A DNA stretch of 22,806 nucleotides, taken from IMG/VR virus record IMGVR_UViG_3300032088_000096, positions 1-22,806 of that record. One strand, written 5' to 3'. The notes beneath the pieces were generated by a model that was not told the DNA's origin, did no database searches, and saw only the letters and a list, made by a program, of their open reading frames with translations. The position numbers and the translations under genes are program-made. How positions within the stretch are numbered: position 1 is the stretch's first letter; every line of letters begins with the position of its first letter. Origin of the DNA: a virus. Shown here one piece after another: positions 5,551 through 22,778 of the stretch.

Positions 5551-5684
5551 AGGTGTTCACCTCGCATACGAGCAGGCAAGACCCTCGTGAAATTGCATTC
5601 GTCGCAACAGACGCCACCTTGATTCAAGGTGTGTCCTGTTCCTTCAAATGTCCCTTGACAGAACTTGCATTTGTATGTTCGCAT
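5547..5684 (-). CDS. Very small zinc-ribbon protein (45 aa)
   Basis: A 45-codon gene whose ATG lies exactly 22 nt after TATATA. It encodes MRTYKCKFCQGTF, then GGVCCDECNF. The two CxxC knuckles (CKFC near residue 6, CDEC near residue 27) are about 18 residues apart, a rubredoxin-like zinc ribbon. It ends with an ATGA overlap with the 72-aa gene. The promoter position, coupling and intact knuckles argue that this short frame is real. Function unknown. Confidence 0.75.
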   Translation of the reverse strand: MRTYKCKFCQGTFEGTGHTLNQGGVCCDECNFTRVLPARMRGEHL

Positions 5685-5722
5685 AAACAGGCTTAGGTGA
5701 CACACCTATATAAGTGTGCCGC
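5685..5722 (-). promoter_or_regulatory. Archaeal promoter of the zinc-ribbon / LamG operon
   Basis: A 38-bp spacer directly after the TAG of the HNH gene: GCGGCACACT, TATATA, GGTGTGTCACC, then CTAAGCCTGTTT before the ATG. The GGTGTG after the TATA box is shared with the promoters at 11191 and 14206. Confidence 0.82.
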
Positions 5723-6238
5723 CTATGACTTGCGTTTTGGCCCTCTGATTGGTTTGCCGCTTTCAACGGCATTGATGCGTGCAAGGTCGGCCTCCAATTG
5801 ATGTCGTTTGCGATTCTTTCGACGCTGTCCCTTAGAGAGATTTGGTCGTGGTTTAACTGTCGTGTCTTCGCCCGTCATCTCGTTCAAACGGTGCTCGTGA
5901 TAGCCCTTTTTGCGGTGGCAATTTGCACAGAGGACTTGGCACTTGGCAATCTCCTCCATGATGCGTTCCCACCCGTACCCGCTTGTCACGAGATGCGAAA
6001 CAGAGACGACTTTGTTATCAGGGTCAAGGTGGTCGAAGTCGAGACTCCAAGCGTTGTCCTTGCCACTGTGACCGCACTCACAGCACGATAGGGTCTCCTT
6101 GTAGGCACGATAGCGTTGTTTGAGCGCACGACGCCTGTCACGCACCTGCTGACGCCTGTGGTCGCCGTTCTGAGCATACCAACCTTCGTGATACTTCTTC
6201 TGATAGGACTTGCGCCGTGAAGCATCCTTGAAGGGTAT
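5723..6238 (-). CDS. HNH endonuclease, apparently starting at a non-standard ATA codon
   Basis: The protein has a C-terminal HNH nuclease with two zinc knuckles: CCECGH, then LDFDHLDP (the catalytic Asp-His pair) and CQVLCANCHRKKGYHEH. HNH enzymes nick or cut DNA; phage copies act as homing enzymes or in packaging. Counting from 6238 it is 171 aa. Family members often open M-P-(F/Y)-K-D followed by a basic helix and Y-x-x-x-(W/Y); here the frame reads I-P-F-K-D-A-S-R-R-K and Y-H-E-G-W-Y-A-Q-N-G. The first codon is ATA where ATG is expected, and GGAGG lies 7 nt before it. The first usual start in frame is a GTG at 6145, which would delete the conserved basic N-terminus. Either ATA is used, or the base is a mutation or error. 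It lies 17 nt after the DUF4214-like gene. Confidence 0.75.
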   Translation of the reverse strand: MPFKDASRRKSYQKKYHEGWYAQNGDHRRQQVRDRRRALKQRYRAYKETLSCCECGHSGKDNAWSLDFDHLDPDNKVVSVSHLVTSGYGWERIMEEIAKCQVLCANCHRKKGYHEHRLNEMTGEDTTVKPRPNLSKGQRRKNRKRHQLEADLARINAVESGKPIRGPKRKS

Positions 6239-6255
6239 ATTTATCCCTCCATAAT

Positions 6256-6609
6256 TCAGGATTCGATGAGTGGCAACCGACCTTGATACTCGCCGCTCAT
6301 TTTGATTTGTCGGACGATTTCAGGCAGTGGGAATCCCTTCACATCGACGAGACCTGCGTAGTATTGAATCTCGGCTTCTTTTGGCTTGCGACCCAAGAGG
6401 GCTTGGAAAGCCTCTTCGACGAATGTAGCGGGTGATTTGGGGTAGCCGACCATTTCAGGGAGTTCTCCGATGACGGCCTTCTTCTCGGCCTTCTTCTCGA
6501 CCTTTGGAGCGGGTGCAGGTTCTTCAACAGGAACTGCTTCGACCTTTGGAGCGGGTGCAGGTTCTTCGACCTTCTTTTCGGTTTTCTTGGATGACTTCTT
6601 GGTTGCCAT
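6256..6609 (-). CDS. DUF4214-like protein with Pro/Ala/Lys/Glu linker (117 aa)
   Basis: Residues 1-50 form a low-complexity linker, MATKKSSKKTEKKVEEP, with two copies of EEPAPAPKVE. Residues about 60-115 (TFVEEAFQALLGRKPKEAE, IQYYAGLVDVKGF, EIVRQIKMSGEY) look like one DUF4214 unit. That helical repeat is found in secreted, S-layer and phage structural proteins, with the usual F-V-x-x-x-(F/Y)-x-x-(L/V)-L-G-R core. I chose the ATG at 6609; the longer open frame overlaps the upstream gene. It probably is a virion or attachment accessory protein, by inference from the domain and its place after the tail-joining genes. Confidence 0.65.
   Translation of the reverse strand: MATKKSSKKTEKKVEEPAPAPKVEAVPVEEPAPAPKVEKKAEKKAVIGELPEMVGYPKSPATFVEEAFQALLGRKPKEAEIQYYAGLVDVKGFPLPEIVRQIKMSGEYQGRLPLIES
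6497..6567. repeat. Two 29-bp direct repeats inside the DUF4214-like gene
   Basis: A 29-bp unit at 6497-6525 recurs without mismatch at 6539-6567, a period of 42 bp (14 codons). It encodes the duplicated EEPAPAPKVE linker. Perfect nucleotide identity suggests a recent in-frame duplication. Confidence 0.85.
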
Positions 6610-7003: not shown

Positions 7004-7049
7004 GTTTAATCGTAGGGTGCAGTCCTATATAAAGATTCCTCTGAAAGAA
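7004..7049 (-). promoter_or_regulatory. Archaeal promoter of the 122-aa gene operon
   Basis: GGAATCTT, TATATA, GGACTGCACC, then CTACGATTAAAC and the ATG, 22 nt after the box. The stop of the upstream gene is 8 bp further away than in the 38-bp cassettes. Confidence 0.8.
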
Positions 7050-16921: not shown

Positions 16922-16980
16922 GTTATTCGCCTCTGTTCTATCGTAGTAGCCTGTCCTATATAACCGTGTCGGTGAAAGAC
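16922..16980 (-). promoter_or_regulatory. Archaeal promoter with a short 5' leader (129-aa gene / terminase)
   Basis: CGACACGGT, TATATA, then GGACAGGCTACTAC and GATAGAACAGAGGCGAA, AAC and ATG follow. The box is 35 nt from the ATG, 13 more than in the leaderless class, so the mRNA should have a leader of about 13 nt carrying AGAGG as SD. The GATAGAACAGAGGCGAA block also occurs before the gene at 19607. Confidence 0.8.
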
Positions 16981-19662: not shown

Positions 19663-20559
19663 TTATAGATGCTTGATAGTCGTCTTACACGCCTTGCAGG
19701 CGAACGACACATCAGGCTGTCCGTCGGGACATTGAGCCTTAGCGAGACCCAATATAACCCTTTGCCCGCACTTGGCGCATCGAATCATTTCAACCCAATA
19801 ATTGCTATTCCCGTAGGAAGTAGGAGCACGGGTATCGAGGTACGGTTCAACCTTGCTATACACCTCTTCGACAGCCTCTTCGTGCGCCGTTTCGTCTGTC
19901 TCATAACCGTAAGCGAAGAAGAATTGAGAATCGAACATGCGAAGTTCACCTGATACGATTTTCTCGCCATGCACCGTATAGTCATAGGTGACACCGCTGT
20001 ACTTGACGGGCTTGTGATGTGATGGAAGAAGACCTGCATCAATGTCCGTTAGGTATGACATTTTGTCTTCAACGCAACACAGAATCCTGACCACTTCGTT
20101 GTCAAAAGTGGTTGATTCGTAGCACAGAGCCAACGCCGCTCTAAGGGTTATCTCGTTCAATAGGTAATGGTCGTGTCCCCACTTTTCGGGATGGATGACC
20201 TCGATTGACCCGTCATCGGGTGTGTTCATTATTTTCAAAGCCGTCTGAAATCCCTCTTTCGGTGGCACTGCTTTGACTGCCACTCTAAACAGGTTGGGGC
20301 TATCAATCGGAGATAGGTGCAACACGACAGGGATAGAATCGGTTCTCCATATCACTGCAAGTGGGTTCATGTCGTCCTCAACATCACTAACCAATTCAAC
20401 GATTGAAGTCAGGTCTCCCGAAGAGAAGCACGAACTCGTGCCATCAACGAGTCGTTGAAGTAGGTCATCGTGACTCTCAAAGAAAGTCTCATCAATGCCA
20501 TCTCTAAGGTAGAACTTGCCACCTCTGTCATCGTGTATTCGGCTTCGTAGGAGGTTCAT
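19663..20559 (-). CDS. Hypothetical protein with C-terminal zinc ribbon (298 aa)
   Basis: The ATG overlaps the stop of the VWA gene (ATGA), so both proteins are probably made together. Residues 1-230 form an unrecognised acidic alpha/beta domain (for example LLNEITLRAALALCYE and FFFAYGYETDETAHEEAVEE). The last 45 residues, RCAKCGQRVILGLAKAQCP then VSFACKACKTTIKHL, hold CxxC, C and CxxC for one zinc. A role as a partner or substrate adaptor of the VWA protein is inferred from coupling only. Confidence 0.65.
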   Translation of the reverse strand: MNLLRSRIHDDRGGKFYLRDGIDETFFESHDDLLQRLVDGTSSCFSSGDLTSIVELVSDVEDDMNPLAVIWRTDSIPVVLHLSPIDSPNLFRVAVKAVPPKEGFQTALKIMNTPDDGSIEVIHPEKWGHDHYLLNEITLRAALALCYESTTFDNEVVRILCCVEDKMSYLTDIDAGLLPSHHKPVKYSGVTYDYTVHGEKIVSGELRMFDSQFFFAYGYETDETAHEEAVEEVYSKVEPYLDTRAPTSYGNSNYWVEMIRCAKCGQRVILGLAKAQCPDGQPDVSFACKACKTTIKHL

Positions 20560-22778
20560 TCTTGCACCGTCCTTCGCTTCTTGCCCGACTTCATCAATCG
20601 CTTGATAGCGACCTTGAATGGGGTGATAATGTCGGTCGCTAAGGTTGCCACATTATCGACGCTTGCATGGCCGTGATTGCCATACCATGTCGATGTGTTC
20701 ATGCCACAGATACCGACGGAGAAGAGGAGAACATCGTCGTCCTCAAGGTCTCGTAGGACTGCGTGAAGGTGCTCGCCTGCGCCGAAGCCTGCGGGTGCAG
20801 GGCCAGCGGGTGCGCCATCAGAGATGATGAAGACGAGTCGCTTTGCTCCATCCTTGCCGAATTGCTTGGTGCGTCGTGCCGCCCACTTGACTGCGTAGCC
20901 GTCAGAGTTCTGAGAGCCTGCGAATGGGGTTGCGACTTGACGCTTTACTTTGGTCGTGAGAGCCTCGTTTGCACCCTTGCGGACATTGATGTAGGTTGCG
21001 CCTTGAGGGTAGCCCTCGACGCCTCCATTGGACGAATTGAAGTCCACGACCTCGTAGTCTGCTCCGACCTGTTGGAGAGCCTCACAGAGGGTCACAGCGG
21101 ACTGTGCGGCCATCTTAGAGCGGCGACCACCCATCGAGCCACTTGCGTCGATTAGGACGACACAGCGGAGGTTGAATGCTTGGTGGGTCTTAGGCTTCTG
21201 AAATAGCCTCTCGGAGGAGCGGACAGCCCATAGGCGGTTGTCGTCCAATTTGCCCTTCTTATGGTGGGTGGAGAAGCGTGAATCCGCTCCCTTGATGAGA
21301 CGCTCGATTTGACGACCGAGACGCTTGATGCCTGCACGGTTGGTCGAAGCGACTTGGTTGTATGCCTCAAGTGATTCAAGCAGGCCGTGTCGCCAGTGCT
21401 CATTGACTTGAGTGATGATTGCGTGACCACCGTCATCGGTTGTACCGTATGTGTCAGAGTACACGAACTCGTTCTCAATCTCTTCACCTTCTTCATCGAA
21501 CTCCATGTCTTCAAAGCCGTCTAAGAGTGAGTCGGCTTCGGCAAGTAGGTTGGTGGCGAAGTCTGTGCCGAACATGGCATCTGACGAGCCTGTGCCGCCT
21601 GCCATGTGACCTGTTTCGTGGTTGTCGCCCAATTGGACTTTTTCTTGGTGAGTACCTTCGTCGTCGTTCTCACCCTTGCCTGCAATGAATTGAGTACCGT
21701 TGCCGTCGGTGGAATCGTCGCTGTCGCCTCGACCGTCACCCTTGCCTGCTCCTTCGCCGTTGCCGTCGCCGTCGCCGTCACCGTCACCGTCGCCCTCAGC
21801 ACCGCCTTCGCCTGCTTCGTCACCGTCACCGTCACCTGCTCCGTCGCCTTCGCCTTCGTCGCCGTCGCCGTTGCCTGCTCCTTCACCTGCGTTGTCGCTG
21901 TCAGGAATGACTTCATCGACTTTCTTGAATCGCTTGCGCTCGACCTTCTCAGCCTCTTGCTTGTTGCGCTTTTGGGTGTTGGCCGCTTCGGTAATGTAGT
22001 TCATATCCATGTCGTCAGCAAACACGCCTTCGGCTTCGGGACACTTCGATGCGCCGTACTCGTTGCCGTCGCACTCGTCTTCGGGGAAGTGAGAGCGGTA
22101 AATGGCGAGGAGGGTGCGAGCACCCTTGACTGCTTCGGAGGTATCAACGGATGCAAGAGCACCCTTGATTTCAGGACGAATGTCGTTCATCATGTTGATG
22201 ATTTTGTCATTGTCGAAGAAGTGACCGACACCGAGAATGACTTCGGTTGCGATAGCGAGAACAGCCATTTTAGGGACTTCGTTGTCTTTGAGTTCACGAC
22301 CTACGACCATTGACTTATGTTGCTCCATCATGAACTCCTGAGCGAAGTCAAGACGCTTCTTTGAGCCACCGAAGTCTTGACCGAGCAAGTAGTTCACTCG
22401 TGCGTCTTCGATGATGTTGGTGAAGTCGTGCATCAACCCGTCCTCAGAGCCACGCTTGATTGAGTCAGTGACTCGCTTCCATGCGTTGAAGTTAGTGTAG
22501 CGAAGGTGTCCTGCGGCTTCGTGAGCCAAGACTGCTTCGGTCATAATCAAGTTAAGACGAGGGTCATTGACTTGAGGGTTGATTGGGTATGTGAGCCAAA
22601 CGGTCTCGCCGTCGGTTGCACATGGGGCTGATGGGCCAATCTCGATTTTCTTAATCGAACGGCCTTTGCCTTCGTATTCGCCACTTAGGACACGACCCAA
22701 TTTGGTCATGTGCGCTCTGTATTGGTTCAGAGTGGTGCGGTCTGCTGATAGGGTTTGGGTCGGGTTGTTGCCTGCCAT
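20556..22778 (-). CDS. CobT/VWA-like protein with zincin-like N-terminus and MIDAS domain
   Basis: 740 aa. Residues 80-130 hold VLAHEAAGHLRYTNF and NIIEDARVNY, the paired H-E...H and E-D-x-R motifs found in CobT-like VWA proteins; here the second His is one residue further (H-E-x3-H). A 290-370 stretch is Gly/Asp-rich (GDGDGDEAGEGG), a flexible acidic linker. Residues 536-735 are a VWA domain with an intact metal site: LIDASGSMGG (Asp544, Ser546, Ser548), TPFAGSQNSDG and FIISDGAP (Asp654). Such proteins normally work with a MoxR-type AAA+ ATPase to insert metals or remodel complexes. The neighbouring upstream gene lies outside the window. Its ATG is 22 nt after the TATATA at the right edge. 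Confidence 0.85.
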   Translation of the reverse strand: MAGNNPTQTLSADRTTLNQYRAHMTKLGRVLSGEYEGKGRSIKKIEIGPSAPCATDGETVWLTYPINPQVNDPRLNLIMTEAVLAHEAAGHLRYTNFNAWKRVTDSIKRGSEDGLMHDFTNIIEDARVNYLLGQDFGGSKKRLDFAQEFMMEQHKSMVVGRELKDNEVPKMAVLAIATEVILGVGHFFDNDKIINMMNDIRPEIKGALASVDTSEAVKGARTLLAIYRSHFPEDECDGNEYGASKCPEAEGVFADDMDMNYITEAANTQKRNKQEAEKVERKRFKKVDEVIPDSDNAGEGAGNGDGDEGEGDGAGDGDGDEAGEGGAEGDGDGDGDGDGNGEGAGKGDGRGDSDDSTDGNGTQFIAGKGENDDEGTHQEKVQLGDNHETGHMAGGTGSSDAMFGTDFATNLLAEADSLLDGFEDMEFDEEGEEIENEFVYSDTYGTTDDGGHAIITQVNEHWRHGLLESLEAYNQVASTNRAGIKRLGRQIERLIKGADSRFSTHHKKGKLDDNRLWAVRSSERLFQKPKTHQAFNLRCVVLIDASGSMGGRRSKMAAQSAVTLCEALQQVGADYEVVDFNSSNGGVEGYPQGATYINVRKGANEALTTKVKRQVATPFAGSQNSDGYAVKWAARRTKQFGKDGAKRLVFIISDGAPAGPAPAGFGAGEHLHAVLRDLEDDDVLLFSVGICGMNTSTWYGNHGHASVDNVATLATDIITPFKVAIKRLMKSGKKRRTVQE
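21720..21890. repeat. Simple-sequence GDG-coding region
   Basis: On the plus strand, GCCGTC, ACCGTC and CCTTCG hexamers recur and encode Gly-Asp/Glu repeats of the VWA protein. Such arrays easily change length. The high GC here explains long false frames on the other strand. Confidence 0.8.

Follow-up and report, generated by a model that had tools for sequence, protein, structure and literature searches.

The HNH endonuclease gene in the window (the whole 22,806-nucleotide stretch analysed, IMG/VR record IMGVR_UViG_3300032088_000096) begins with ATA, and we consider it likely that this near-cognate AUA codon is used as the start and holds the nuclease at low output among structural genes. 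A strong Shine-Dalgarno (SD) sequence would place the ribosome at the AUA, on a transcript common to two upstream genes, and initiator Met-tRNA would pair with the codon at two of its three positions; the nuclease would be translated in full from position 6238. Output of the nuclease would be held far below that of the nearby structural proteins by the poor codon and, probably, by a hairpin that sequesters the SD. We infer that initiation at AUA occurs in vivo, that its yield is low and that the low yield has been selected.

The ATA was read directly on the minus strand, and the GGAGG that an initial annotation of this DNA had placed 7 nt upstream is present, with the spacer GATAAAT (Table 1). 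The frame opens IPFKDASRRKSYQKKYHEGWYAQNGD..., the codons after ATA being CCC TTC AAG GAT (P F K D), and contains no ATG, GTG or TTG before codon 32, as that annotation had also stated. Upstream of the ATA the frame stays open for 27 codons, likewise with none of the three. The span 5723-6255 originally assigned to the gene is correct in its coding part, and its end at 6255 takes in the leader.

Table 1 Features of the HNH start region, its transcription unit and the ATT clade.
Feature	Position	Strand	Remarks
HNH endonuclease gene	5723..6238	minus	171 codons counting ATA, plus stop; stop codon 5725-5723
ATA near-cognate start codon	6236..6238	minus	ATT in the two closest relatives
Shine-Dalgarno GGAGG, 7-nt spacer	6246..6250	minus	Predicted anti-SD duplex -11.4 kcal/mol; conserved in L001, L002
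Predicted hairpin, TGGAGGG (6251-6245) : CCCTTCA (6235-6229)	6229..6251	minus	ATA in 9-nt loop; MFE -8.7
GTG, codon 32 (Val 32), first canonical codon	6143..6145	minus	Rejected as start; GTC in L001, L002
Upstream cistron, 117 aa, MATKKSSKK...	6256..6609	minus	ATG start; stop 17 nt before ATA
First cistron of inferred transcript, 122 aa	6635..7003	minus	ATG 28 nt after TATA box
TATATAGG promoter box of inferred g7003-g6609-HNH transcript	7024..7031	minus	One of 9 window copies
TATATAGG promoter box of next transcript	5705..5712	minus	ATG at 5684; bounds HNH transcription unit
AATAAC-to-ATT stretches	L051:13249-13279; L056:10696-10726; L126:1333-1363

Profile searches match the product to PHROG HNH families over the HNH core, best to phrog_3106 (E=1.8e-22) and also to PHROG 2255 (E=2.4e-22); Pfam gave no family at E<=0.001. 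The window protein shares its family with the phage HNH endonucleases of PHROG 3106, 2255 and 4234 (E down to 1.8e-22), the matches extending into the N-terminal region, and the annotated phage proteins among the matches listed share less than 45% identity with the window protein, over part of its length only. The catalytic His/Asn/His residues and zinc ligands (C52, C55, H70, C104, N106, H108) are invariant across 31 HNH sequences. A structure model has a pLDDT of 83, and its best nine PDB matches are HNH nucleases, among them T4 endonuclease VII and Cap5, all of them weak (E 0.5 or worse).

A search with the HNH protein returned L001 and L002 as close orthologues, at 75% and 74%, whose alignments with it begin at residue 1, and a capsid-protein search gave 65 related loci, 41 of which carry an HNH orthologue, every one matched from residue 1. 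The initial annotation had proposed looking for ATG at the aligned first codon of relatives; in the two closest the codon is ATT, with the GGAGG kept (GGAGG GG TAG TCA ATT CCC TTC), and near-cognate non-ATG codons recur family-wide. With ATT at this codon and a TAG in frame two codons before it, L001 and L002 offer neither ATG nor an upstream start. L006 (54% identity) starts at TTG immediately after an in-frame TGA, and L016 and L018 at CTG with TGA four codons before. A count over 28 distinct relatives gave ATG in 14, ATT in 6, GTG in 5, CTG in 2 and TTG in 1, so that 14 of the 28 have a non-ATG first codon; L126 adds one more ATT, preceded by TGA two codons earlier. With the ATA of the window, the family uses only AUG or its single-base neighbours.

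The weak starts are conserved among relatives: the ATA groups with the two ATT codons of L001 and L002, CTG is found in a pair, and a further ATT in a separate clade. On a tree of 32 HNH proteins, constructed with the start codon left out, the first codon has changed at least nine times, and the step between ATG/GTG/TTG and ATT/ATA/CTG was taken independently three or more times (in the window together with L001 and L002, in the CTG pair and in the ATT clade). In neighbouring families at the same loci (capsid, protease, terminase and others) the aligned start, or a site no more than a few codons from it, is ATG or occasionally GTG; some members of family g8179 extend farther upstream. A scan of all viral contigs for the pattern GGAGG-N4-9-ATH-CCNTTYAARGAY found 29 stretches, in which the only HNH genes were those of L001 and the L002 contig, the others being unrelated frames.

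The poor starts of the relatives (ATT, CTG, TTG, GTG) point to a lasting low-output device or to tolerance, rather than to a mutation or a sequencing slip. Tolerance without selection is the alternative that survives best, although we consider it unlikely: if little product is needed, near-cognate codons could drift in, and the strong SD, perhaps with coupling to the stop 17 nt away, would make the identity of the start codon matter little. The first codon does wander over ATG, GTG, TTG, CTG, ATT and ATA, with the many changes seen on the tree, and most SD-led members have an upstream stop at a distance of 8-19 nt. ATG is retained in about half of the orthologues, which counts against a brake and means that the weak start is not universal. 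Yet AUG starts are under purifying selection across prokaryotes, and a survey of 36 prokaryote groups and 61,358 starts recorded AUG to AUU once and AUG to CUG twice (PMC5622118), figures to be taken as an order of magnitude only because the survey depends on annotation. The at least three separate moves to ATT, ATA or CTG in this one gene stand against a background of a few such switches in 60,000. Furthermore, a divergent clade (L051, L056, L063, L126) has retained ATT throughout, and differences in SD strength and structure fit control.

In the SD-led group, predicted anti-SD pairing amounts to about -11 kcal/mol for the ATA, ATT and CTG genes and to -5 to -7 for most ATG members (one has -9.2), as if a strong SD offset the weak start codon. 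The SD of the window is predicted to pair with codons 2-4, in a hairpin that falls in the most stable 3% when compared with synonymous recodings of codons 2-6. The start regions of L001, L002, L016 and L018 are predicted to fold in the same way, and a compensatory pair (GTGAGG:CCTCAC versus GTGGGG:CCCCAT) distinguishes L016 from L018. Ten members of the window's branch lie on average at the 20th percentile for start-region stability against synonymous recodings; capsid starts lie on average at the 94th and are nearly unstructured. These predictions suggest that a hairpin hiding the SD may act as a second brake on the HNH gene, a suggestion only, because the signal is modest, the sequences share ancestry and codons 2-3 (Pro-Phe) are by their nature complementary to an SD. 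The start of the major capsid protein (MCP) gene in the window (9293) and its orthologues have almost no predicted structure, less stable than nearly all synonymous recodings, and look as if selected for high translation.

The N-terminal region bears on where translation begins. Between the window and L001, codons 2-31 show 9 synonymous and 4 nonsynonymous codon differences, with base differences of 5/1/11 at codon positions 1/2/3 (dN 0.07 versus dS 2.4), and this protein-level constraint indicates that the N-terminus is translated. It makes very improbable a start at the GTG of codon 32, which would leave the first 31 codons untranslated. That GTG is the first canonical start codon in the frame, but no SD lies near it in the sequence read, and the strong third-position bias and purifying selection upstream of it argue against its use. 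The initial annotation had raised the prospect that relatives begin at its equivalent; the codon is GTC in L001 and L002, which therefore do not start there, conservation reaches codon 2, and every orthologue aligns from residue 1. L001 and L002 have a GTG at codon 7, at a distance of 26 bases from the SD; the window has TCA there. The rare AUA start put forward earlier is thus supported by the orthologue codons, the SD and the selection on codons 2-31; toxicity may, as that proposal has it, be the reason for keeping the nuclease low.

Two further explanations offered at the outset have lost ground. An assembly or sequencing error that conceals a true ATG has slighter probability still: a second record of the same start region was sought and none was found, which leaves the error some room, but ATT occurs in the two closest relatives on separate contigs and CTG or TTG in others, and no error is needed to explain the pattern. 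That a recent G-to-A change silenced the gene and left a decaying pseudogene is hardly credible. ATA is one step from ATG, but the codon is ATT in the closest relatives and the gene's frame is under constraint; the frame is full-length and intact, its zinc and HNH residues are kept, the SD is retained, and the sister lineage, also without ATG, is itself constrained (L001 versus L002, codons 32-125, dN 0.013, dS 0.29). The least credible explanation, that frameshifting or readthrough yields the HNH protein as an extension of the upstream product, would suit the 27 open codons in the window but is contradicted by a relative frame of the two genes that differs between members and by in-frame stops 1-4 codons before the start in L001, L002, L006, L009, L016, L018 and L126. 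A mini-ORF (ATG GAG GGA TAA, 6252-6241) with re-initiation at the AUA was also considered and rejected, as it is absent from L001 and L002.

The transcription units of the window virus are mapped by TATATAGG boxes, of which the window holds nine against 0.13 expected, all on the coding strand (minus; 1874, 5705, 7024, 11211, 14047, 14226, 16955, 17607 and 22799) and most of them precisely 28 nt ahead of an ATG. Counted from the box at 7024-7031, HNH comes third. Of 61 distinct TATATAGG sites in the related loci, 49 are followed by an ATG after 27-29 bases, the distance being exactly 28 in 37 cases; no non-ATG start was matched to a box among the 61 sites, all 49 driven starts found being ATG. 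This spacing is that of an archaeal TATA box driving a leaderless mRNA. Neither sigma-70-like sites nor terminators were more frequent than in shuffled sequences. A search with the upstream gene found no relatives. At 16955-16962, and in L006, L058 and L060, TATATAGG is followed by approximately CTACGATAGAACAGAGG and then by an ATG some 41 nt on; the spacer of this variant promoter, with its GAGG site, is common to these several viruses.

The members of the ATT clade (L051, L056, L063, L126) show no clear SD in their start regions, which counts against the proposed brake. Each has an AATAAC box exactly 28 bases before the ATT, and in L051 the same box also precedes the ATG of another gene by 28 bases. 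If the box is a promoter, the mRNA of this clade seems to be leaderless and to begin with AUU, and this apparent leaderless AUU start is the oddest part of the start-codon picture.

The AUU start of Escherichia coli infC limits translation, and in T4 the ribosome-binding site of I-TevI is hidden in a hairpin, which limits a viral nuclease. I-TevI is an intron-borne homing enzyme, whereas the window HNH is a fixed core gene with a hairpin that is predicted only. The AUU start of E. coli pcnB also limits translation (Binns and Masters 2002, as cited in PMC13009471); infC and pcnB are single cellular genes, whereas the HNH codon varies among several near-cognates within one family. In Staphylococcus aureus, infC (AUA), ccpN (AUA) and cvfC1 (AUU) have near-cognate starts behind extended SDs, and reporters for the staphylococcal sites tested gave lower output with the near-cognate codon (PMC13009471). 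These genes share with HNH a conserved AUU or AUA start behind a strong SD; they are bacterial and under IF3, whereas HNH is a viral nuclease known from sequence, with a probably archaeal host that would use aIF1. The GTC start of Streptomyces sigR is reported to be a translational brake (PMC5472188), as the non-canonical start of HNH would be; codon, gene class and domain of life differ.

The only starts named in a review of archaeal initiation are AUG, GUG and UUG (PMC7531240), which counts against an AUA start, and in a partial coverage of the literature we found no report of conserved AUU, AUA or CUG starts in an archaeal virus gene. It is a tentative and somewhat doubtful proposal that a family of archaeal tailed viruses uses near-cognate starts as a dedicated brake on a core nuclease, with a leaderless AUU in one branch and an AUA in the loop of an SD-hiding hairpin in that of the window. 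If this is true, archaeal ribosomes, or ribosomes in infected cells, initiate at AUU, AUA and CUG, outside the described set; with an archaeal host, start codons would extend beyond those described for archaea, and the gene would offer a case, open to direct test, in which a virus restrains a dangerous enzyme encoded within a structural-gene transcript. A single gene with such a series of start codons serves as a natural experiment in how far from AUG initiation can go. Gene finders limited to ATG, GTG and TTG would trim the HNH proteins of these viruses by 6 to 38 residues or miss their start.

HNH is a core, vertically inherited gene. All MCP loci that extend 4 kb or more downstream contain it, 1.6-2.9 kb from the capsid gene (L023 excepted), and HNH and MCP distances agree (Mantel r 0.81, 0/2000 permutations). 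The one locus scored without HNH, L026, is the contig of L006, which has it. A free-standing mobile homing endonuclease was rejected, since the distribution is not sporadic and HNH inheritance tracks that of MCP. No group I intron or other Rfam RNA was found in the window, and no tRNA gene, including a virus-encoded initiator tRNA, in the window or 21 related loci. In L023 (5123-5641, minus) the HNH gene is encoded on the opposite strand, and at no other locus is it so far from the capsid gene.

The 22.8-kb virus record that forms the window encodes a portal, a capsid (Phage_capsid E=9.9e-12) and a terminase, and comes from a marine, tailed and probably archaeal virus. An archaeal host is likely, judged from sequence features: the promoter boxes have archaeal geometry, and the nearest match to the PolB of a related contig is archaeal PolB. 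Against it count the terminase (TerL), nearest to Bacillus/Listeria-type phages, and a GroEL-like chaperonin (group I by eye) in two relatives (L105:1441-3015 and L104); other features are archaeal-type. PCNA, sought as an archaeal marker, was absent, and scans of genome-collection contigs with MCP and HNH gave no host and no MCP relative. One match, at 24%, was to a Microcystis phage. Elsewhere in the window, 20556-22778 (minus) encodes a protein of 740 aa that matches phrog_1576 and has a CobT-like VWA domain and a long acidic middle part rich in repeats.
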